From: Alloalcanivorax marinus
Lineage (GTDB): Bacteria > Pseudomonadota > Gammaproteobacteria > Pseudomonadales > Alcanivoracaceae
Reading direction: 5' to 3'
Assembly (NCBI RefSeq): GCF_016785095.1
Contig: NZ_JAEKJB010000002.1
Span: forward strand, 248,001 to 312,000
DNA: 64,000 nt
The stretch's first letter is position 1, and each line of letters starts with the position of its first letter. Below, piece by piece: positions 3,029 to 13,468 of this stretch. The position numbers were made by a program, and so were the translations under genes. A model generated the notes under the pieces. It worked only from the letters and a program-made list of their open reading frames with translations. It was not told the DNA's origin and ran no database searches.

Positions 3029-3745
3029 TTAACCGGCGCACGCTTCCGGGGACCCCAGCATGCGCCGGATCAAAACGGTTACCTGGGCGAGCGCCTGATC
3101 CTCACTCATCTCCCCATGGGGGTTATACCAGTACGCCATGCGGTCGCACTGGCTGAGCACGGCCAGGGTCACCACCTTGGGGCTGACGGGACCGTCGTCG
3201 GGTACGTAGTCGCGTACCAGATCCTGCACCTGATGGCGGTAGCCCGCCATGCGCTCGCTAAAATGGCGAGCGGCGTCGTCGGGAAGGAACATGCGCGCGA
3301 ACTGAGGGTCGATCAGGCGGTCGTTGGCGCGGGCGATGAGCCGGTGGCGCATCTTATAGCGCGCATGGCGGTCGATCACCGTGAAAAGGCGTGATCCCCG
3401 GGGCACCGCCTCAATCCCATCGAGAATATAGGAGAAAAAATCGTCCATCCCCAGATCGATGGCTCCGACCAGGAGCGCTTCCTTGGAGGGGTAATAGTTA
3501 TAGAGCGTGGGCGCCTTGAGACCGACCCAACTGGCCAGTGTGCGCATGTTGAGATTCTCGTAGCCCCGCTCCGCGAACAGGGCGATGGCGGCCACCAGAA
3601 TACGGCTTTGCATGGTGCCGCCGCCCGCGCGCCGGGAGACCTCTTCAAGATCCTTCTCGATGTTCTCGCCCAGGTAATGCGGGGTGCCGCTGTCCTCGGG
3701 CAGCCGCGCGCCGTTGCGCGAGCGTCGTGTCGTGGTTCGTGTCAT
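3029..3745 (-). CDS. TetR-family transcriptional regulator
   Basis: 238-residue regulator. After an Arg-rich leader, the helix-turn-helix is visible around residues 45-90 (AIALFAERGYENLNMRTLASWVG followed by KAPTLYNYYPSKEALL), typical of TetR; the rest is a helical ligand domain. ATG at 3745 was chosen, but an in-frame GTG at 3781 directly follows the livM stop (TAGCGTG) and could be used by translational coupling. It is the last gene of the transporter/monooxygenase operon. The likely target is the perfect palindrome at 10600-10617 in front of the first gene, giving negative autoregulation of the whole unit relieved by the transported compound or a product; this is inferred. Confidence 0.85.
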   Translation of the reverse strand: MTRTTTRRSRNGARLPEDSGTPHYLGENIEKDLEEVSRRAGGGTMQSRILVAAIALFAERGYENLNMRTLASWVGLKAPTLYNYYPSKEALLVGAIDLGMDDFFSYILDGIEAVPRGSRLFTVIDRHARYKMRHRLIARANDRLIDPQFARMFLPDDAARHFSERMAGYRHQVQDLVRDYVPDDGPVSPKVVTLAVLSQCDRMAYWYNPHGEMSEDQALAQVTVLIRRMLGSPEACAG

Positions 3746-3782
3746 GGCGCCATTCTTGGTGAATTCGTGGTAAAAATCCACG

Positions 3783-4778
3783 CTAGGCTGTTTTTCGCGG
3801 ACGATGGCGGGAAAGCGATAGCAGTTCCCCCATGATGCCGCGCCGGAAGGTCAGCACACACAGCACGAACACGATCCCCATGATCATCATCACCGATTCT
3901 CCCAGGGTGGAGAACCAGGCGAAGCCGGTCAGGCTGGCCAAACCCGCTCCCAGGGCACCCATCTTGTTTTCCAGGGTAACCAGTGCCAGGGCGCCCACCA
4001 CGGGGCCGGAAAGGGTGCCCAGCCCGCCCACCAGGGTCATCAGCAATGCGTGGCCGGAGGTCATCCAATGCACGTCGGAAAGCGTGACGAAACCCAGGCT
4101 GATCGCCTTGAGCGCGCCGGCCAGGCCGGTCAGCGCGGCGGACAGGGTAAACACGATCAGTTTGTAATGGTTCGGATGGTAGCCCAGCGACACCGCCCGG
4201 GGTTCATTGTCCTTGATCGCCTGCAGGGCCTGCCCGAATGGCGAGTACACCACGCGGGCGATAAACAAGAAGGCGGCCACCGAGATGACCAGCACCGTGT
4301 AGTACATGGTCAGATCGTCGTGCAGGTCAAGCAGTCCGAACAGCCGGCCCCGATCAATGCCCTGCAGCCCGTCCTCGCCCCCGGTCTGTGGTAACTGCAC
4401 GCACAAAAAGTAGACCATCTGCGCCAACGCCAGGGTGATCATGGTGAAGTAGATACCCGAGCGACGGATTGATATGAAGCCCATCACCACGCCCAACAGC
4501 GCGCCGCTGCCGAGGCCGGCGAGCAACGCCAGCTCCGGGGAAAGCTGCCACATCTTGACCCCGTAGCCAGCCACGTAACCGCCCACCCCAAGAAAAGCCG
4601 CGTGGCCCAGGGAGGCCAGACCGGTGTAGCCAAGCAGTAGATGGAAGGCACAGGCAAACAGCGCATAGCACAGTAGCTTTGTGCCCAGCACCGGGTACAG
4701 GCCAGCCCACGGCGCCACCACCAAGGCGAACAACAACATCGCGTAACCGCAAGTGCGCAGGGAAGGGAAAGCGCTCAT
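3783..4778 (-). CDS. livM: Branched-chain amino acid-type ABC permease (LivM family)
   Basis: 331-residue inner-membrane permease with about eight to ten hydrophobic segments. Family landmarks are LLGYTGLASLGHAAFLGVGGYVAGYG near residues 48-73 and the cytoplasmic EAA-like loop FGQALQAIKDNEPRAVSLGY. It pairs with the LivH subunit and overlaps that gene by 4 bases (ATGA). Liv-type importers carry amino acids but also aromatic acids, amides and urea; the linked hydroxylase/esterase argues for a non-amino-acid substrate. Confidence 0.9.
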   Translation of the reverse strand: MSAFPSLRTCGYAMLLFALVVAPWAGLYPVLGTKLLCYALFACAFHLLLGYTGLASLGHAAFLGVGGYVAGYGVKMWQLSPELALLAGLGSGALLGVVMGFISIRRSGIYFTMITLALAQMVYFLCVQLPQTGGEDGLQGIDRGRLFGLLDLHDDLTMYYTVLVISVAAFLFIARVVYSPFGQALQAIKDNEPRAVSLGYHPNHYKLIVFTLSAALTGLAGALKAISLGFVTLSDVHWMTSGHALLMTLVGGLGTLSGPVVGALALVTLENKMGALGAGLASLTGFAWFSTLGESVMMIMGIVFVLCVLTFRRGIMGELLSLSRHRPRKTA

Positions 4779-5656
4779 TCGCCACCTCCAAATAATCCGT
4801 TCGGGCGCACCATGAGCACCAGCACCATGACCAGGAACATCACCATCGAGGAAGCCTCCGGGTAGTACACCTTGGTCAACGCCTCCACCAGCCCCAGGCC
4901 GATGCCGGTAACCACGGTGCCGAGAATCGAGCCCATGCCGCCGATCACCACCACCGCGAATACGATTACGATCAGGGTTTGGCCGGTCAGCGCGGAAACC
5001 TGCATTACCGGCGCCGCGAGCACGCCGGCGAAAGCGGCCAGCGCCACCCCGAAGCCGAATGTCAGGCTCACCATCATTGGTACGTTGACGCCGAACGCCT
5101 CCACCAGGCTGGCGTTCTCAGTGGCGGCGCGCAGGTAGGCGCCAAGCCGGGTCCGTTCAATCATGAACCAGGTAGCGCCACACACCAGCAGGGAAGCGAC
5201 AATCACCCACAACCGATAATTGGGCAGCATCAGGAAGCCGAGGTTGGTGACGCCGGCGATGGGCGGCGGGCCGTAGGGGCGCCCGGATACCCCATAAGCG
5301 GACCGTACCGCTCCTTCGATGATCAGCGTCAGCCCGAGGGTAAGCAGCAGACCGTAGAGATAATCCAGGTGGTAAACGCGGCGCAGAAACAACCGCTCCA
5401 GCAGGATACCGAACGCGCCGACGATCAACGGCGCCATAACCAGCATCACCCAGTAATTGATGTTGAAATAGTGTAGCCCGGCCCAACTCAGCAGGGCACC
5501 GAGCATGAACATGGCACCATGAGTGAAATTGATCACGTGCAACATGCCGAAGATTACCGCCAGCCCCAGGCTAAGCACGGCATAGAAGCAGCCATTCACC
5601 AGGCCGATCATCAGTTGCGCCATCAACGCCGTGATGGGCACGCCGAACAGGTCCAT
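4775..5656 (-). CDS. livH: Branched-chain amino acid-type ABC permease (LivH family)
   Basis: 293-residue polytopic permease. It shows the conserved N-terminal LivH block MIGLVNGCFYAVLSLGLAVIFGMLHVINFTHGA, the loop RTRLGAYLRAATENASLVEAFGVN and the GGMGSILGTVVTGIGLGL segment. It forms the membrane channel with LivM, whose start codon overlaps its stop. A 26-base gap separates it from the upstream ATPase gene. Length and motif order are normal for the family. Confidence 0.9.
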   Translation of the reverse strand: MDLFGVPITALMAQLMIGLVNGCFYAVLSLGLAVIFGMLHVINFTHGAMFMLGALLSWAGLHYFNINYWVMLVMAPLIVGAFGILLERLFLRRVYHLDYLYGLLLTLGLTLIIEGAVRSAYGVSGRPYGPPPIAGVTNLGFLMLPNYRLWVIVASLLVCGATWFMIERTRLGAYLRAATENASLVEAFGVNVPMMVSLTFGFGVALAAFAGVLAAPVMQVSALTGQTLIVIVFAVVVIGGMGSILGTVVTGIGLGLVEALTKVYYPEASSMVMFLVMVLVLMVRPNGLFGGGE

Positions 5657-5682: not shown

Positions 5683-6396
5683 TCAGACACTGAGCAGCCG
5701 GGAGACCCGGTCCGCCTGGTCCTCGAGTTGCACCGGCGTCAATGTCTCGATGATGCGCCCGTGCTCCATGAACAGAAGCCGGTCGCACAGCGCGGCGGCG
5801 AAATGAAAGTTCTGTTCCACCAGAAGAATGGTGTAGCCACGCGAACGCAGTGCCCGGATCGCCTCACCCAAGGTGTCCACGATCACCGGTGCCAGCCCTT
5901 CGGAGATTTCATCGAGCAATAACAGCTTTGCCCCGGTGCGCAGGATGCGTGCCAGCGCCAGCATCTGTTGCTCGCCGCCGGACAGTGCCTTGCCGGGGCT
6001 GTGTCGCCGCTCCGCCAGGTTGGGGAAAAGCTGGTAAATTTCGTCCAGAGACAACCCGGGCGAGCCGTTGTCGAACAGCGGCGGCAGTTTCAGGTTTTCC
6101 TCGCAGGACAGGCTGGCGAAGATGCCGCGTTCTTCCGGGCAATAGCCGATCCCGTGTCGTGCGATGCGGTAGGTGGGTTGGCCCAGGGTTTCCTCGCCGA
6201 ACACCCGGATCGAACCCTGGCGGCGGCCGGTGAGCCCGAGAATGGCGCGCAAAGTCGTGGTGCGCCCGGCGCCGTTGCGTCCCAGCAGGGTTACCGCCTC
6301 ACCGGGCAGCACCTGGAAGTCCACGCCTTGCAACACCAGGGACTCGCCGTACCAGGCGCGCACATTGTCCAATACCAAAGCCGGTGTGCCGCTCAT
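5683..6396 (-). CDS. livF: ABC transporter ATPase (LivF family)
   Basis: 237-residue nucleotide-binding subunit. It has an ABC signature (LSGGEQQMLALARIL), Walker B (LLLLDEISEGLAP) and the switch His region (TILLVEQNFHFA). The Walker A motif reads GRNGAGRTT, with Arg where the catalytic Lys normally stands; the codon is CGC, so this is not a reading error on my part. Some LivF-type proteins are known to carry this Arg, so activity is not excluded. The start overlaps the stop of livG by 4 bases. Together with LivG it should power the importer. Confidence 0.88.
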   Translation of the reverse strand: MSGTPALVLDNVRAWYGESLVLQGVDFQVLPGEAVTLLGRNGAGRTTTLRAILGLTGRRQGSIRVFGEETLGQPTYRIARHGIGYCPEERGIFASLSCEENLKLPPLFDNGSPGLSLDEIYQLFPNLAERRHSPGKALSGGEQQMLALARILRTGAKLLLLDEISEGLAPVIVDTLGEAIRALRSRGYTILLVEQNFHFAAALCDRLLFMEHGRIIETLTPVQLEDQADRVSRLLSV

Positions 6397-7160
6397 GCCG
6401 CCGCGCCCCCTTGCCGTCCGCCGCCCAGATAGGCACGGGTGACCTCCTCGTTGCGGGACACCTGGTGGTAATCGCCGCTGGCAATCACCCGACCGCGCTG
6501 CAATACCGTCAGGGTATCGGCGATGCTCGCCACCACTTTCATGTTGTGCTCCACCATCAGCACGGTACGGCCCGCGGATACCGTCTTGATCAGCGAGGTG
6601 ACACGCTCCACGTCCTCGTAGCCCATGCCCTGGGTGGGTTCGTCGAGCAGCATCAGCACCGGGTCCATGGCCAGAGTGGTTGCCAGTTCCAGGGCGCGTT
6701 TGCGCCCATAGGGCAGGGCGCCGGCGGCTTCGTCAGCCAGCGTCGCCAAGCCCACCTGGTCGAGCAGGGTCAACGCTTCCTCATTGAGCCGGTCGAGCAC
6801 CCGCGCGCTACGCCAGAAATGAAACGAAACCCCCAGCTTGCGTTGCAGAGCCAGCCGCACGTTGTCGAGCACGCTGAGCCCGCCAAACACCGCCGAAATC
6901 TGAAACGAGCGCACCATGCCGCGCCGGGCCACCGCCTTGGCGGGAAGGTTGGATACCGGCTCGCCGTTGAAGTGGATTTCCCCGGCACTGGGTTCGATAA
7001 AGCGCGTCAAAAGGTTGAACAGGGTGGTCTTGCCGGCCCCGTTGGGGCCGATCAGTGCATGGATATGCCCGGATTGCACCGCCAGGTCCACGCCGTCCAC
7101 TGCGGTGAAGCCCTTGAAGCTTTTGCGTAATCCCCGGGTCTCCAGAACCGGGGCGCTCAT
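6393..7160 (-). CDS. livG: ABC transporter ATPase (LivG family)
   Basis: 255-residue nucleotide-binding subunit with canonical Walker A GPNGAGKTT near residue 38, a LivG-type signature LPYGRKRALELATTLA, Walker B VLMLLDEPTQGM and the downstream H-loop VLMVEHNMKVV. The C-terminus has the family ending in which GRVIASGDYHQV precedes RNEEVTRAYLG. It overlaps both neighbours, consistent with translational coupling in one transcript. It heterodimerises with LivF below the LivH/LivM channel. Confidence 0.9.
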   Translation of the reverse strand: MSAPVLETRGLRKSFKGFTAVDGVDLAVQSGHIHALIGPNGAGKTTLFNLLTRFIEPSAGEIHFNGEPVSNLPAKAVARRGMVRSFQISAVFGGLSVLDNVRLALQRKLGVSFHFWRSARVLDRLNEEALTLLDQVGLATLADEAAGALPYGRKRALELATTLAMDPVLMLLDEPTQGMGYEDVERVTSLIKTVSAGRTVLMVEHNMKVVASIADTLTVLQRGRVIASGDYHQVSRNEEVTRAYLGGGRQGGAAA

Positions 7161-8374
7161 GCCCCGCCCCCGGTGACCAGCGAGCAGCGGGACTCGGACA
7201 ATGGCTGGTAGGCCCGTTCGGCGGGGATGGTTTCCAGCCGGCGGTAGTAATCCCAGGGGCCGCTGGATTGAGCTGGCGTTTTCACCTGGTACAGATACAC
7301 ATCGTGGATCATCTGCCCGTCGGCGCGCACTCGTCCGTTACGCGCGAACATATCGTTGATCTCCCGGCCATGCAGATCGGCGAGCACTGCTTCGGCATTA
7401 TCGCTGCCAAGGGTCTGCACGCTGGTCAGGTACTGGGTAATCGCCGAGTAGGTGGCGGCATTGAGCATGTTGGGCTTGTTGCCGGTCTTCTCCTGGAAAC
7501 GGGCGCTCCAGGCTCGCGACGGCTCATCCTGGTCCCAATAGAAGCCCTCCACCAACAACATGCCCTGGGTGGTGGCCAGCCCCAGGGCGTGCACGTCGGT
7601 CATGCTCGCCGACAGGCCAACGATCTTCTGCTGCTGGTTGATGCCGAACTCATTGGCCACGCGGATCGCATTGTGCAGGTCGGCGCCGGCGTTGGCGATG
7701 CCGATCACCTGGGCACCGGAGCTTTGTGCCTGCAGCATGAAGGACGCGAAGTCCGAGGCGCCCATCGGATGGTGAAGCGAGCCCAGCACCTTACCCCCGG
7801 CACCCTCCACCGCCTTGGTGGCGTCGTATTCGATGGCCTTGCCCAGGGCGTAGTCCACCGTCACGAAGTACCAGGTCTTGTAACCCTGGTCGGTGAGGGT
7901 GCGCCCCAGGCTGTTGGCCAGGGAGTAGGTGTCCCAGGCGTAGAACACGGTATTGGGTGAGCACTGCTCATTATTGATCGCCGTCGAGCCGGAGCCGGTG
8001 ACCATAAGCACCCGGTTCTTGTCCCGCGTCACCTCGGACACTGCCAGGGCCACCGCCGAATTGATCACATCGGTGATCATGTCCACGCCCTGGGTGTCAT
8101 ACCATTCTCGCGCGCGGCTGGCGGCCACGTCGGTTTTGTTCTGATGATCGGCGGTTACCAGCTCCACCTTGAAGTCCGGCTCATGGGCGGCGACGAAGTC
8201 ATCCACGGCCATACGGGCCGCCGTGACCGCGCCTTCGCCACTGAGATCGGAGAAGATCCCGGACATATCCGACAGAACGCCGATCTTCACCGTGCCATCG
8301 GAAATTTCGGCCGCGCTGGCGCCGCTAGACAGCAGGACCAGCCCCAAAAGACCATGAAGAATTGAATTGCGCAT
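7157..8374 (-). CDS. Periplasmic substrate-binding protein of Liv-type importer
   Basis: 405-residue type I periplasmic binding protein. Signal peptide MRNSILHGLLGLVLLSSGASA is followed by the family opening SDGTVKIGVLSDMSGIFSDLSGEGAVTAARMAVDDF. A good AGGAAG ribosome site precedes the start. Later blocks (TWYFVTVDYALGKAIEYD; GASDFASFMLQAQSSGAQVIGIANAGADL) match LivK-like proteins that recognise aromatic or hydroxy acids as often as amino acids. Two Cys residues (EQCSPN, SRCSLV) could form a periplasmic disulfide. It determines the substrate of the adjacent transporter; the ligand cannot be read from sequence. Confidence 0.9.
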   Translation of the reverse strand: MRNSILHGLLGLVLLSSGASAAEISDGTVKIGVLSDMSGIFSDLSGEGAVTAARMAVDDFVAAHEPDFKVELVTADHQNKTDVAASRAREWYDTQGVDMITDVINSAVALAVSEVTRDKNRVLMVTGSGSTAINNEQCSPNTVFYAWDTYSLANSLGRTLTDQGYKTWYFVTVDYALGKAIEYDATKAVEGAGGKVLGSLHHPMGASDFASFMLQAQSSGAQVIGIANAGADLHNAIRVANEFGINQQQKIVGLSASMTDVHALGLATTQGMLLVEGFYWDQDEPSRAWSARFQEKTGNKPNMLNAATYSAITQYLTSVQTLGSDNAEAVLADLHGREINDMFARNGRVRADGQMIHDVYLYQVKTPAQSSGPWDYYRRLETIPAERAYQPLSESRCSLVTGGGA

Positions 8375-8406: not shown

Positions 8407-10563
8407 TTAACCGACGGCGCGCACCGGGGCGCCGACCACTTTGGCGGCCCAGTCGCCAATGGCTTTCAGGGTGGTTTCCGTCTCCGGCAGGAACGGGAAT
8501 AGTGGGTACACATGCACGGAGTCCCGTACCGGCAGCATGGTTACCTCCATGCCGGCTTCCCGCGCCCGGTCCAGCAGCCGTGTGCTGTCGCTGTACAGGG
8601 ATTCTCCTTCCACCGCCGACAGGAACAGTGGCGGCAGGTCGCGCAAATCCCCGAACAATGGTGATACCAGAGGGTCGCGTGGCTCATGGGCCTGAAAATA
8701 GGACGCCGCCATCAAAGCCAGGGTGTCGCGGTTGGCGGCCGGGTCCTCACCAGCGAATTCCTTGATGCTCGGGCCGGACAGCGTCAGGTCGGTGAACGGG
8801 CAGATCGCCACGATCCCCGCCGGCAGCGGATCGCCAGCCATCTTCAACGCCAGCGCCAGGGCCAGCGCCAGGCCGCCACCGGAGGATTCGCCGCTCACGA
8901 TCAACCGTGACGGCGCCACCCCGGCGCGGACCAACCCGCGGTAGGCATCCATGGCGTCGTCCAGCGCGGCCGGGTAGGGCGCCTCCGGTGCCAGCCGGTA
9001 GTCCACCGTCAGGCATTCACCGCCCACCGCCTGGGCCAGCCGTCCCGCGTATTCCAGGGAGCTCCGGGCCGAGCCGAGCATGTAGCCGCCGCCGTGGAAG
9101 TGCAGCACCACGGGACCTTCTTCGCTTGCCGCCGTGTTCGCGTCGCGCACCCGGAATGCCGGTACGCCGCCCAGCTCAGCCTCTTCCACCCGGGTGCTTT
9201 CCGGCACCGGGAAATGAGTGGTCAGGAAGCGGTCGTAACCCTCGCGCATGCCGTCATGGCCGCGCGCCACATCCTCCGCGGTAAATGCCCCTTTCCAAAG
9301 ATCGAAGGCGCGCTGGCTCTCCGCCCGTGCCATGCGCTTGGCTTCACGGGTGGCGGACAATCCCAACACCTCGCCGGCCGGGCGCTCGACCTCCTCAAGC
9401 ACGTTGTACTCCCACACGAACGACCAGGTCGCTTCCGCCATCGGATCAATGTGCTGCATGCCTTTCCAGCGTCCGTTCCGGGCCTTGATCCGTTCCGGGT
9501 CGGACTCATGCACCATCTTCACCATCGCCCGCGCGCCGGACTGAACCCGGGTGGTACGCGGGCGGCGCCGCTGCTCGTATTCCCGCAGCCCGGCGAGCGG
9601 ATCATCACGATGGCGCTCCAGCATGGTGGCCAGCACCCAGGCATCCTCCATGCCCTGGCAGGCGCCCTGCGCCAGGAACGGCACCATCGGATGGGCGGCA
9701 TCCCCCATCAGGCTTACCCGCCCCTCGGTCCAGCGATCAATCGGGTCGCGGTAGAACATGCCAGTGATAAAGGCGCTGTCGATCTGGTCCATCATCGCTT
9801 GGGCGCGCGGTTCCAGGTCCGAGAACGAAGCCCGCAACTCATCGATGTCGCCGCTTTCCGTCCAGGATTCCCGGTGCACCTCTCCGGACGGTACCGAAGC
9901 CAGAATGCTGTAAAGCTTGCCGGGCCGGATCCAGTAAGTGATCAGAGTGCGCCCGGGGCCGAACCAGTAGTTACCCCGCTCCGGCAGATCAATGCCTTCC
10001 AGCTTCTCGGCGGGAATCAGTGCCCGCCACATCAGGATGTTGGAAAACTGGACGTCGTCGTCGCCAAACAACTGCTGGCGGATCACGGAATGAATGCCGT
10101 CGGCGCCGATCAGCACATCGCCACGCAGGGTCTCGCCATCTTCCAACCGCACGGTGACGCCGCCCTCGTCCTGCTCGAACCCGGCGCAGCGGCTGCCCAG
10201 GCGAAGCCGTTCAGAGGGCAGGGCGTTGGCCAGTATCTCGATGAGATCGGCGCGATGGACGTTGTACAGCGGTGCGCCCCAGCGACGTGTACCCGCGTCA
10301 CCCAGAGGGGCCACCCAAAGCAGCTTGCCGTTACCGATATCACGCATATCGAACGATCCCGGCACCACCGAGATGTCCGCCACGGCCTTCTCAAGCCCCA
10401 GTTCCCGCAGCACCACCGAGCCATTGGCGGCAATCTGAATACCCGCGCCAATCTCGGTGAGGCGGGGTGCCTGCTCGATGATGGTCGCGTCGATGCCCTT
10501 GTGGCGCAGGGCGATGGCGGCGGTCAAACCGGCGATGCCGGCACCCACGATCAGGACGTGCAT
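8407..10563 (-). CDS. Fusion of FAD aromatic hydroxylase and HSL-type alpha/beta esterase
   Basis: 718-residue two-domain enzyme. Residues 1 to about 400 are a group A FAD monooxygenase of the salicylate / 3-hydroxybenzoate hydroxylase type: dinucleotide-binding GAGIAG at 7-12, the DG motif GADGIHS at 153-159 and the second FAD motif GDAAHP at 287-292. Residues from about 440 are a hormone-sensitive-lipase-family hydrolase: oxyanion-hole HGGGY at 490-494, nucleophile Ser560 in GESSGG, an acidic residue in VEGESLYSD near 652-654 and His684 in DSVHVYP. No stop or frameshift lies between the halves. The AAGGGAG ribosome site precedes the ATG. First gene of the operon with the importer, so it likely hydrolyses an imported ester and hydroxylates the released ring, or the reverse. 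Confidence 0.87.
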   Translation of the reverse strand: MHVLIVGAGIAGLTAAIALRHKGIDATIIEQAPRLTEIGAGIQIAANGSVVLRELGLEKAVADISVVPGSFDMRDIGNGKLLWVAPLGDAGTRRWGAPLYNVHRADLIEILANALPSERLRLGSRCAGFEQDEGGVTVRLEDGETLRGDVLIGADGIHSVIRQQLFGDDDVQFSNILMWRALIPAEKLEGIDLPERGNYWFGPGRTLITYWIRPGKLYSILASVPSGEVHRESWTESGDIDELRASFSDLEPRAQAMMDQIDSAFITGMFYRDPIDRWTEGRVSLMGDAAHPMVPFLAQGACQGMEDAWVLATMLERHRDDPLAGLREYEQRRRPRTTRVQSGARAMVKMVHESDPERIKARNGRWKGMQHIDPMAEATWSFVWEYNVLEEVERPAGEVLGLSATREAKRMARAESQRAFDLWKGAFTAEDVARGHDGMREGYDRFLTTHFPVPESTRVEEAELGGVPAFRVRDANTAASEEGPVVLHFHGGGYMLGSARSSLEYAGRLAQAVGGECLTVDYRLAPEAPYPAALDDAMDAYRGLVRAGVAPSRLIVSGESSGGGLALALALALKMAGDPLPAGIVAICPFTDLTLSGPSIKEFAGEDPAANRDTLALMAASYFQAHEPRDPLVSPLFGDLRDLPPLFLSAVEGESLYSDSTRLLDRAREAGMEVTMLPVRDSVHVYPLFPFLPETETTLKAIGDWAAKVVGAPVRAVG

Positions 10564-11444: not shown

Positions 11445-11960
11445 ATGAATGACTCAGCCTGGTACGTGGTGCAGTGCCGCGCCAACCAGAATTTCCGCGC
11501 CCAGGAAAACCTGGAAAACCAAGGCTTCACCTGCTTCCAGCCCCGGCTCCGCGTGGAAAAACTCCACGCCGGCCGCCGCACCCACCGCACCGAACCCCTG
11601 TTTCCCGGTTATCTGTTCATCCGCTTCGAGGAATACGGCCCCAGCTGGCACACCGTGCGCTCCACGCGCGGCGTCAACAAGCTGGTGGCGTTCGGCGAGC
11701 GGCCGGCGCGGGTGCCCGGCAAGGTGGTGGATGCATTAATGCAAAACAGCCGGGCCCGGGAGCAGGGCAGCGACGCCGAGCCGGCGATCCGTCCCGGCGA
11801 CCGGTTGCGCATCGAGCGCGGCCCCTTCGCCAACCTGGAAGCCACCTTCCACGGTTACAAAGGCGAAGAGAGAGCCATCGTTCTGCTGGACATGCTGCAC
11901 AAGCAGCACCGGCTCAACCTGGCCCTCAAGGACGTGCGGCCCCTGGCGGCGCACGCCTGA
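11445..11960 (+). CDS. rfaH: RfaH-like transcription antiterminator (NusG family)
   Basis: 171-residue NusG paralogue. N-terminal NGN domain landmarks WYVVQCRANQNFRAQENLE, EPLFPGYLFIRF and TRGVNKLVAFG match RfaH; the C-terminal KOW region covers GDRLRIERGPFANLEATF. RfaH-type proteins load onto RNA polymerase paused at an ops element and suppress termination in long polysaccharide operons. Exactly such an element lies 69 bases downstream of this gene, ahead of ugd, so it very likely controls the operon it heads. The upstream leader contains a CRP box. It is distinct from housekeeping NusG, which sits beside ribosomal protein genes. Confidence 0.9.
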   Translation: MNDSAWYVVQCRANQNFRAQENLENQGFTCFQPRLRVEKLHAGRRTHRTEPLFPGYLFIRFEEYGPSWHTVRSTRGVNKLVAFGERPARVPGKVVDALMQNSRAREQGSDAEPAIRPGDRLRIERGPFANLEATFHGYKGEERAIVLLDMLHKQHRLNLALKDVRPLAAHA

Positions 11961-12029
11961 CAACCGGCGCGGCCGCTGCCGCGCCCACGGATGGATCACC
12001 GTTCTCGGGGAACAGACGGCAAACCCCGT

Positions 12030-12041
12030 GGCGGTAGCGTG
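12030..12041 (+). promoter_or_regulatory. ops element (RfaH recruitment site)
   Basis: GGCGGTAGCGTG, an exact copy of the enterobacterial ops sequence. It sits between the RfaH-like gene and the start of ugd (60 bases upstream of its ATG), on the coding strand, as in JUMPstart leaders of capsule and O-antigen operons. Confidence 0.88.
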
Positions 12042-12100
12042 CCCGAACGGCGGGGGGCTGCTATGCTCTCGCGCCAGAGTCATATTGGGGAACGAAAGGA

Positions 12101-13468
12101 ATGCGCATTACCGTATTCGGCACCGGCTACGTGGGCCTGGTGACCGGAACCTGCCTGGCGGACGCCGGCCACGACGTACTCTGCGTGGACGTGGACCCGG
12201 CCAAGGTGGAAGCCCTCAAGCAGGGCCAGGTGCCCATCCATGAGCCCGGCCTGGCGCCCATGGTGGCCCGCAACCTCCGCGAAGGCCGCCTGAACTTCAC
12301 CACCGATGCCGAAGCCGGCGTCGCTTTCGGTGGCCTGCAGTTCATCGCCGTGGGCACGCCTCCGGACGAGGACGGCTCCGCGGATCTGCGCTATGTGCTT
12401 ACCGTGGCCGCCACCATCGGCCGTCACCTGGACGGCTACAAACTGGTGATCAACAAGTCCACCGTGCCCGTGGGTACCGTGGACAAGGTGCGCGCGACCA
12501 TCGCCGCCGAGCTTGAGCAACGGGGCCGGGACACCGAATTCGACGTCTGCTCCAACCCGGAATTCCTCAAGGAAGGCGCCGCCATCGAGGACTTCACCCG
12601 GGGCGCGCGCATCGTGGTGGGCACCGACTCACCCCGGGTCCGCGAACTGATGCGCGAATGCTACGGCCCCTATAACTGGAATCACGACAAGCTGATCTTC
12701 ATGGACCCGCGCTCCGCGGAGCTCACCAAATACGCCGCCAACGCCATGCTGGCCACCAAGATCAGCTTCATGAACGAAATGGCCAACCTGGCCGAACGGC
12801 TCGATGCCGACATCGAACACGTGCGCCTGGGCATCGGCTCCGACCCGCGCATCGGTTACCACTTTATCTACCCGGGCTGCGGCTACGGCGGCTCCTGCTT
12901 CCCCAAGGATGTACAGGCCCTGGCCCGCACCGCCCGGGACGTGGGCTACGACGCCCACATCCTGGCCGCCGTGGACGCCGTCAACCAGCGCCAGAAAACG
13001 ACCCTCTACGACAAGCTGGCCGCCGCTTTCGACGGCGACCTGGCCGGTCGCACCGTGGCCGTATGGGGCCTGGCTTTCAAGCCCAACACCGACGACATGC
13101 GCGAAGCCCCCAGCCGGGTGCTCATGGAAGCGGTATGGGCCGCCGGTGGTAAGGTGCGCGCCTACGACCCGGAAGCCGGCCGCGAATGCCGCCGCCTTTA
13201 TGGCGACCGCGACGACCTGGAGATCGTGGCGCACCGCCATGATGCCCTCGACGGCGCCGACGCCCTGGTGATCTGCACCGAATGGAAGGAATTCCGGGTG
13301 GCGGATTTCGCCACCATCAAGAAATTGCTTATCACGCCGATACTGGTGGACGGGCGCAACCTGTACGAGCCCAAGGCGGCCCGCGAAGCCGGTCTGCTCT
13401 ATTACGCCATTGGCCGTGGCGAGCGCCCGGGCGCGGCACTGTGTCGCAATTCGGTAACCGGCGTGTAA
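12101..13468 (+). CDS. ugd: UDP-glucose 6-dehydrogenase
   Basis: 455-residue NAD-dependent dehydrogenase that oxidises UDP-glucose to UDP-glucuronate in the cytoplasm. The Rossmann motif GTGYVG is at residues 7-12, NPEFLKEG at 152-159, the catalytic Lys region [11 protein letters not shown] near 207-217 and the nucleophile Cys266 in GGSCFPKD. All key residues are intact, in contrast to the paralogue at 56440. First enzyme gene after the ops element; it supplies an acidic sugar for the heteropolysaccharide. Related GDP-mannose dehydrogenases share the fold, but the sequence reads as the UDP-glucose type. Confidence 0.92.

Follow-up and report, generated by a model that had tools for sequence, protein, structure and literature searches.

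TrlE, the flavoprotein monooxygenase of tropolone biosynthesis (PDB 8rqh), is a single-domain enzyme whose substrate is a ring acid that another enzyme, the thioesterase TrlF, has released from CoA (PMC11110157). The same paper models Arg185 and Tyr217 of TrlE as holding the substrate carboxylate, gives product formation as abolished in H213A, and matches TrlE with 3-hydroxybenzoate 6-hydroxylase (3HB6H, PDB 4bjy), the roles of whose active-site Tyr217 and His213 are covered in PMC6043778, PMC5472690 and PMC11110157. Here we describe a gene in a 64,000-nucleotide stretch of DNA from Alloalcanivorax marinus, which belongs to a marine group of oil-degrading bacteria (contig NZ_JAEKJB010000002.1, positions 248,001 to 312,000; hereafter the window) in which one uninterrupted frame of 718 codons (8407-10563, minus strand) joins a relative of these monooxygenases to a relative of the HSL or bacterial family IV esterases, such as EstD11 (PDB 7at0), Est8 and E40. 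This fusion protein probably serves to degrade a ring compound taken up by the cell, in two steps that are linked, and a coupling of ester hydrolysis with ring oxygenation is plausible. Its features are as follows, where A1 is the 14-row alignment of fusion proteins, including the divergent Bradyrhizobium plasmid protein L037 (loci carry L numbers), and TrlE residue numbers are chain numbers less 26 by our own count.

8407..10563, minus strand: monooxygenase-esterase fusion gene, 718 amino acids, first gene of its operon
9544..10560, minus strand: FAD_binding_3 domain of a group A flavoprotein monooxygenase, residues 2-340; among solved structures TrlE (8rqh) is closest in both sequence and fold
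10024..10026, minus strand: Arg180, equivalent of TrlE Arg185 by alignment with TrlE; invariant in A1
9946..9948, minus strand: Thr206, at the position of TrlE His213 by the same alignment
9934..9936, minus strand: Tyr210, equivalent of TrlE Tyr217 by the same alignment; invariant in A1 and present in 15/15 fusions
9265..9543, minus strand: C-terminal tail of the monooxygenase and linker, residues 341-433, mainly helical, with confidence low in parts
8410..9264, minus strand: HSL-type alpha/beta hydrolase domain, residues 434-718, Pfam core 486-686; nearest EstD11 (7at0)
8884..8886, minus strand: Ser560, predicted nucleophile, from the A1, EstD11 and L037 alignments; Cys in L037
8602..8604, minus strand: Glu654, predicted triad acid, invariant in A1 and aligned with a Glu of EstD11; role putative
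8512..8514, minus strand: His684, predicted catalytic His, invariant in A1 and aligned with a His of EstD11

An earlier note made from the letters alone had read this frame as a group A FAD monooxygenase joined to an alpha/beta hydrolase, and both Pfam domains are indeed near-complete. FAD_binding_3 matches residues 2-340 over positions 3-345 of a 349-position model, scoring 95 bits where 22 would suffice; Abhydrolase_3 matches residues 486-686 over positions 1-208 of 210, scoring 167 bits where 25 would suffice. The first half carries GAGIAG at 7-12, DG at 155-156 and GD at 287-288, invariant or nearly so in A1; motifs of this kind are known in group A enzymes as GxGxxG, DG and GD, and NAD(P)H-dependent ring oxygenation by the FAD domain is predicted. 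In the second half the HGGG, the GESSGG and the C-terminal His singled out in that note were found at 490-493, at Ser560 and at His684, 34 residues ahead of the C-terminus, and are largely conserved in relatives, with HGGG and GESSGG in most rows of A1 as well. Ser560 is kept throughout A1 except in L037 (Cys), and Ser560, Glu654 and His684 align with EstD11 as a Ser-acid-His triad, the acid being a putative assignment for which Asp659 is an alternative candidate. The HGGG, the nucleophile elbow, the Glu and the His thus align with family IV esterases; unlike them, the protein is joined to a monooxygenase and falls below the cut-off of the GESAG-type HSL subfamily (GESAG_HSLs, NF058651; 231 bits against 430). 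Folds agree with these assignments: in Foldseek comparisons an AlphaFold2 model of the fusion, built from 15 aligned sequences, matched TrlE (8rqh) with a template modeling (TM) score of 0.89 by target, other aromatic hydroxylases matching too, and EstD11 (7at0) with 0.82 by target. The fusion comprises two complete, catalytic-looking domains in one polypeptide.

A missed stop, a frameshift or an assembly artefact in the window was considered and rejected; such an error is very unlikely because relatives are fused in one frame, are conserved, and show low ratios of nonsynonymous to synonymous change (pN/pS). A search of genome contigs gave 16 loci, 14 of them of fusion type at 61-84% identity to the window. 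Both domains lie in one frame in 13 of the 14, with 11 complete and two (L030 and L032) ending at contig ends; the contig of the fourteenth, L033, ends within the hydrolase and is uninformative on the fusion, and L034 and L035, which matched in the hydrolase part only, stand outside the 14. The carriers are Alcanivorax/Alloalcanivorax, Afipia, Bradyrhizobium, Xanthobacteraceae, Hyphomicrobiales, an unclassified proteobacterium, Pseudomonas citronellolis and Marinobacter (L033), to which plasmid records add L036 from Paraburkholderia and L037 (11944-14055), a relative of 39% identity that is present, at 99% identity or above, on seven Bradyrhizobium plasmids. Alpha- and Gammaproteobacteria both retain the fusion, at identities as low as 39%, and one Betaproteobacterium has a copy whose hydrolase domain is frameshifted (L036, 9977-12060); these fused homologues across large distances dispose of the possibility, raised in the earlier note, that homologues are always split. 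Transposase genes start about 3.5 kb downstream of L036. Comparing the window with six relatives, pN/pS was 0.15-0.42 in the monooxygenase, 0.11-0.40 in the linker (codons 394-433, 40 codons) and 0.18-0.51 in the hydrolase, with synonymous sites close to saturation in the more distant pairs, so that both domains and the linker look to be under purifying selection. The fusion is nevertheless rare, occurring in 5/46 genomes of the family (all five in the window's genus), in 2/397 genomes sampled from the order to which the Bradyrhizobium carrier belongs, that carrier included, and in 1/369 drawn from the window's class, namely the window's own genome.

Phylogenies were built from 45 monooxygenase rows and 39 hydrolase rows, which include 30 and 22 single-domain rows, respectively, from a limited, hand-picked sample that leaves out near-duplicates and further loci. 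In the monooxygenase tree a branch supported at 98/97 separates the 14 main-clade fusions, together with L037, from all other rows; L038 and L039, adjacent but separate hydrolase and monooxygenase genes with 27-33% identity to the fusion in either domain, fall outside this group. By this tree the fusion is apparently old, kept and of a single origin, although long branches, which affect L037 and L038 in both trees, leave the placement of L037, L038 and L039 uncertain. At a further locus, L110, an alpha/beta hydrolase lies two genes after the monooxygenase, and a 2,5-dihydroxypyridine dioxygenase is also there. The check for split pairs covered part of the single-domain relatives (L109 and L114 are unannotated), and a closer split pair may exist.

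We give even chances to the reading that the fusion is a hydrolase-first catabolic bifunctional enzyme, in which a ring carboxylate freed by the esterase is oxygenated by the flavin domain. The enzyme would be cytoplasmic, and a HAAT-type ATP-binding cassette (ABC) transporter would import a ring compound as its ester or as a thioester-like derivative. The HSL domain at the C-terminus would hydrolyze this derivative via Ser560-Glu654-His684 and an HGGG oxyanion hole, Arg180 and Tyr210 of the N-terminal FAD domain would grip the freed ring carboxylate, and the FAD domain, using NAD(P)H and O2, would oxygenate the ring on the carbon that bears the carboxylate or close to it; many relatives have an acyl-CoA ligase that would next activate the released or derived acid. 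Both activities, their shared substrate, hydrolysis as the first step, the direction of transport and the class of substrate are what we infer here. A precedent for a hydrolase followed by a monooxygenase comes from TrlE, which by sequence (236 bits) is the FAD domain's closest relative of solved structure, because it works on a ring acid freed by TrlF; hydrolysis there frees the acid for a group A monooxygenase, as proposed here, with two separate proteins in place of one. TrlE performs ipso-hydroxylation and decarboxylation, reactions that the fusion may not share. The equivalents of TrlE Arg185 and Tyr217 are kept, the Tyr in 29/30 single-domain relatives as well as in all the fusions. Additional support comes from two single-domain relatives of 39-40% identity (L111:3498-5152 and L112:3492-5128) whose genes directly follow those of PaaI-type thioesterases, which suggests that a hydrolase-monooxygenase link exists outside the fusions too, and these two loci and the TrlF-TrlE pair are the precedents for hydrolysis coming first. 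The surroundings of L111 and L112 hold beta-oxidation-type genes. Among other pairs, AqdA and AqdB of alkylquinolone degradation, a lead only, are a hydrolase and a monooxygenase, and the salicylate esterase SalE and a salicylate hydroxylase of Acinetobacter are separate hydrolase and monooxygenase steps. The name SalE occurs in a table of PMC6971185.

Behind the fusion gene, which heads its operon, come genes for a substrate-binding protein, a pair of ATPases, a pair of permeases and a TetR regulator, no gap exceeding 32 bases:

7157..8374, minus strand: ABC transporter substrate-binding protein (Peripla_BP_6), 32 bases downstream of the fusion; conserved neighbor
6393..7160, minus strand: ABC transporter ATPase, UrtD/LivG-like, by profile match
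5683..6396, minus strand: second ABC transporter ATPase, from its position and conserved cluster c5, with no profile scan
4775..5656, minus strand: branched-chain-amino-acid-type permease, by profile match
3783..4778, minus strand: branched-chain-amino-acid-type permease, by profile match
3029..3781, minus strand: TetR-family regulator, by profile match

The transporter is of the HAAT type. Homologues of its substrate-binding protein lie near 14/16 main-clade loci, the window counted, and were not seen at L030, where the flank is short, or at L036, where annotation is incomplete. Of the 15 loci that can inform on it, 11 have an AMP-binding acyl-CoA ligase of a single cluster nearby (L020, L022-L027, L031-L033 and L036), 6 of the 11 by profile, L036 by annotation and the others by sequence clustering; among these 15 it was not found at the window, L028, L029 or L030, and L021 ends too early to inform. 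In several relatives the ligase gene directly precedes the TetR gene. The ligase of L022 matches PRK08314, a fatty-acyl-CoA ligase type, at 805 bits (cut-off 705). A different AMP-binding protein lies about 3.9 kb upstream at L029, and one further AMP-binding protein upstream at L031. A 4HBT thioesterase follows in L025 (by scan) and in L031 and L032 (by shared cluster). Upstream in L025 are a VanA-type Rieske oxygenase and a reductase.

Several observations weigh against the hydrolase-first reading. The activities of all members of the fusion family are predicted ones. The nearest solved relative of the substrate-binding protein bears a generic branched-chain name that does not tell the ligand. 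The window's operon is without the acyl-CoA ligase, its permease and TetR genes abutting (3781-3783), and the closest ligase homologue elsewhere in the genome has 49% identity. No ring-cleavage family among five surveyed is over its cut-off in all carriers, absences from drafts being weak evidence. The structural model has a mean predicted local distance difference test (pLDDT) score of 75.7 and a predicted TM (pTM) score of 0.57, and its placement of the two domains relative to each other is tentative. In the hydrolase tree the main clade holds (96/94), but its grouping with L037 has just 63/25, and the separately encoded hydrolase of L038 joins the fusions at 94/88, on a long branch that is not starred. 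Lastly, His is found at position 206 in none of 14 main-clade fusions (Thr in 13, Asn in 1).

Some of these points bear on whether the two domains share a substrate at all. Each might have a substrate of its own, unrelated or loosely related to that of the other, and the two be joined just for joint expression or stability, an idea consistent with a shared substrate that is itself inferred, with the predicted domain placement, and with pLDDT below 50 at residues 353-381 and 397-408. Against mere tethering stand the retention of the fusion across Alpha- and Gammaproteobacteria from apparently one origin in the monooxygenase tree, the low pN/pS of the linker, and the distance of the single-domain homologues, the nearest of those listed having no more than about 41% identity for the monooxygenase and 45% for the hydrolase; we consider mere tethering distinctly unlikely. 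A second independent origin of L037 was also considered; it is unsupported by the monooxygenase tree, and the hydrolase tree is weak at that node.

The replaced His bears on the chemistry. His occupies position 206 in 28/30 single-domain relatives and in L037, the two exceptions being the most distant rows, L038 and L039, where Lys stands in its place. Compared with 3HB6H, whose group A fold is shared, the fusion keeps the equivalent of the active-site Tyr (Tyr210) and has Thr206 for the His (aligned via TrlE, not 3HB6H itself), and it has an esterase fused to it. The main clade thus keeps the presumed carboxylate grip in an altered active site, and because the His is lost and H213A abolishes product formation in TrlE, main-clade chemistry may differ. 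This departure from the single-domain relatives is what an oxygenation-first order might predict, in which the FAD domain makes an ester, a lactone or a ring-opened acyl product, in a Baeyer-Villiger-like way or by opening the ring as 2-methyl-3-hydroxypyridine-5-carboxylic acid oxygenase (MHPCO) does, and the HSL domain hydrolyzes it; the acid would then pass to the CoA ligase, and the fusion would be its own ring-opening module. MHPCO opens its ring, and Baeyer-Villiger pathways offer monooxygenase-esterase pairs in series, though with class B flavoenzymes and in an order reversed relative to the one that we favor. The weaker PDB matches include structures that bear the name MHPCO, and the recurrent ligase partner is of the PRK08314 fatty-acyl type, both of which fit oxygenation first. 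The closest solved relatives (TrlE, vanillate and 4-hydroxybenzoate 1-hydroxylases, NicC) are hydroxylases, however, which argues against it.

The ring-cleavage enzymes of the carriers speak to both orders. Besides gentisate dioxygenase, we surveyed HgmA, intradiol dioxygenases, LigB and catechol 2,3-dioxygenase, each over 24 genomes (16 distinct carriers and 8 same-genus genomes without the fusion). HgmA was found in 8/16 carriers, intradiol dioxygenases in 10/16 and LigB in 11/16; catechol 2,3-dioxygenase was over its cut-off in 3/16, with weak sub-cut-off matches in 11 more, by a model that also matches 9/14 control genomes. In the eight genomes without the fusion these counts were 0, 0, 7 and, over cut-off, 0. 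The five Alcanivorax-group carriers lack HgmA and intradiol dioxygenases (0/5 each), and gentisate dioxygenase occurs among these five only in the window's genome, as might be expected if the fusion opened rings itself; one of them, G024, had no match in any of the five families, a soft absence in a genome 90% complete in 220 contigs. Yet LigB-type enzymes are present in 4/5 of these carriers, and the absence of HgmA and intradiol dioxygenases is not peculiar to carriers, because the eight fusion-free genomes are without them too. Weighing both sides, we find oxygenation first, the main rival of the hydrolase-first reading, rather unlikely. A more specific proposal, that a His-less flavin domain oxygenates a ring other than a hydroxybenzoate to an ester, lactone or ring-opened product that the fused hydrolase then opens, we judge unlikely.

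The hydrolase-first reading also has a narrow form, in which the acid released by the HSL domain is 3-hydroxybenzoate or salicylate and the FAD domain turns it into gentisate. The best NCBIfam model of the fusion protein is 3-hydroxybenzoate 6-monooxygenase (PRK08163), which recommends this route, but the score is far under the equivalog cut-off (279 against 459 bits) and the main clade has lost the His. Only 3/15 distinct main-clade genomes have a gentisate dioxygenase over cut-off, a count that leaves out G046-G049 (judging by size and number of candidates, apparent duplicates of G024-G027), two plasmid records (W01, where nothing matched, and W02, the one with L037, whose match is under cut-off) and G275; a gentisate pathway as the general role was rejected on this ground. 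No gentisate 1,2-dioxygenase lies in the window's operon. That of the window's genome shares the contig with the fusion but lies some 234 kb from it, with a separate, second monooxygenase about 1 kb from the dioxygenase (C2:492836 and C2:494763).

The exception is the L037 branch, which the Bradyrhizobium record labels merely as an alpha/beta hydrolase fold domain-containing protein. Its neighbors are two FAA_hydrolase (fumarylacetoacetate-hydrolase-family) genes, a gentisate-dioxygenase-like cupin (252 bits to the gentisate dioxygenase model, under the 442 cut-off), leuC- and leuD-annotated genes, which we take to be readable as a maleate hydratase, and an IclR regulator; a branched-chain-type ABC transporter lies further along. 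This gentisate-type catabolic setting favors the gentisate route, and the branch fits an ester-to-gentisate sequence of steps, though its nucleophile position is Cys, the residue that dienelactone hydrolase uses in that place. The hydroxybenzoate-ester substrate suggested in the earlier note is therefore in keeping with L037, which retains the His, and sits poorly with the main clade, where the His of nearly all single-domain relatives is gone, and with the carriers, no one of the five ring-cleavage families being over its cut-off in all of them. For the window's enzyme we hold the strict gentisate route to be highly doubtful.

The flanks of the operon hold other genes. Positions 2-1444 and 1571-2998 of the window (minus strand) are tandem homologous open reading frames (ORFs) with a secreted look, the second of which has no Pfam or NCBIfam match and a C-terminus that runs from Gly-rich through hydrophobic to Arg-rich, presumably resembling a GlyGly-CTERM sorting signal. 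On the other side, 11445-13468 (plus strand) holds an ORF of 171 amino acids and one of 455, which by eye look like a NusG/RfaH-type regulator and a UDP-sugar dehydrogenase, respectively, possibly the start of a polysaccharide cluster.

Both parts of the fusion belong by profile to known families, and it is their joined architecture that is new. The earlier note knew of no characterized enzyme with this domain pair, and we likewise found no description of FAD_binding_3 with Abhydrolase_3 in searches of open-access papers, a scope that leaves aside most subscription papers and architecture counts over entire databases. A term search of PMC4052671 for a Dietzia fusion of a monooxygenase with an esterase found nothing. 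As an enzyme the fusion may offer a one-pot esterase-oxygenase biocatalyst. Because the pairing is seemingly undescribed, is conserved over large distances with a transporter and often a CoA ligase, and has an altered active site, the fusion may mark an uncharacterized catabolic pathway; were ring processing self-contained, this pathway would supply an acid for CoA activation without a dedicated ring-cleavage dioxygenase. Natural fusions reveal which two steps a cell links, and in these bacteria the two would be the hydrolysis of an ester and the oxygenation of a ring.

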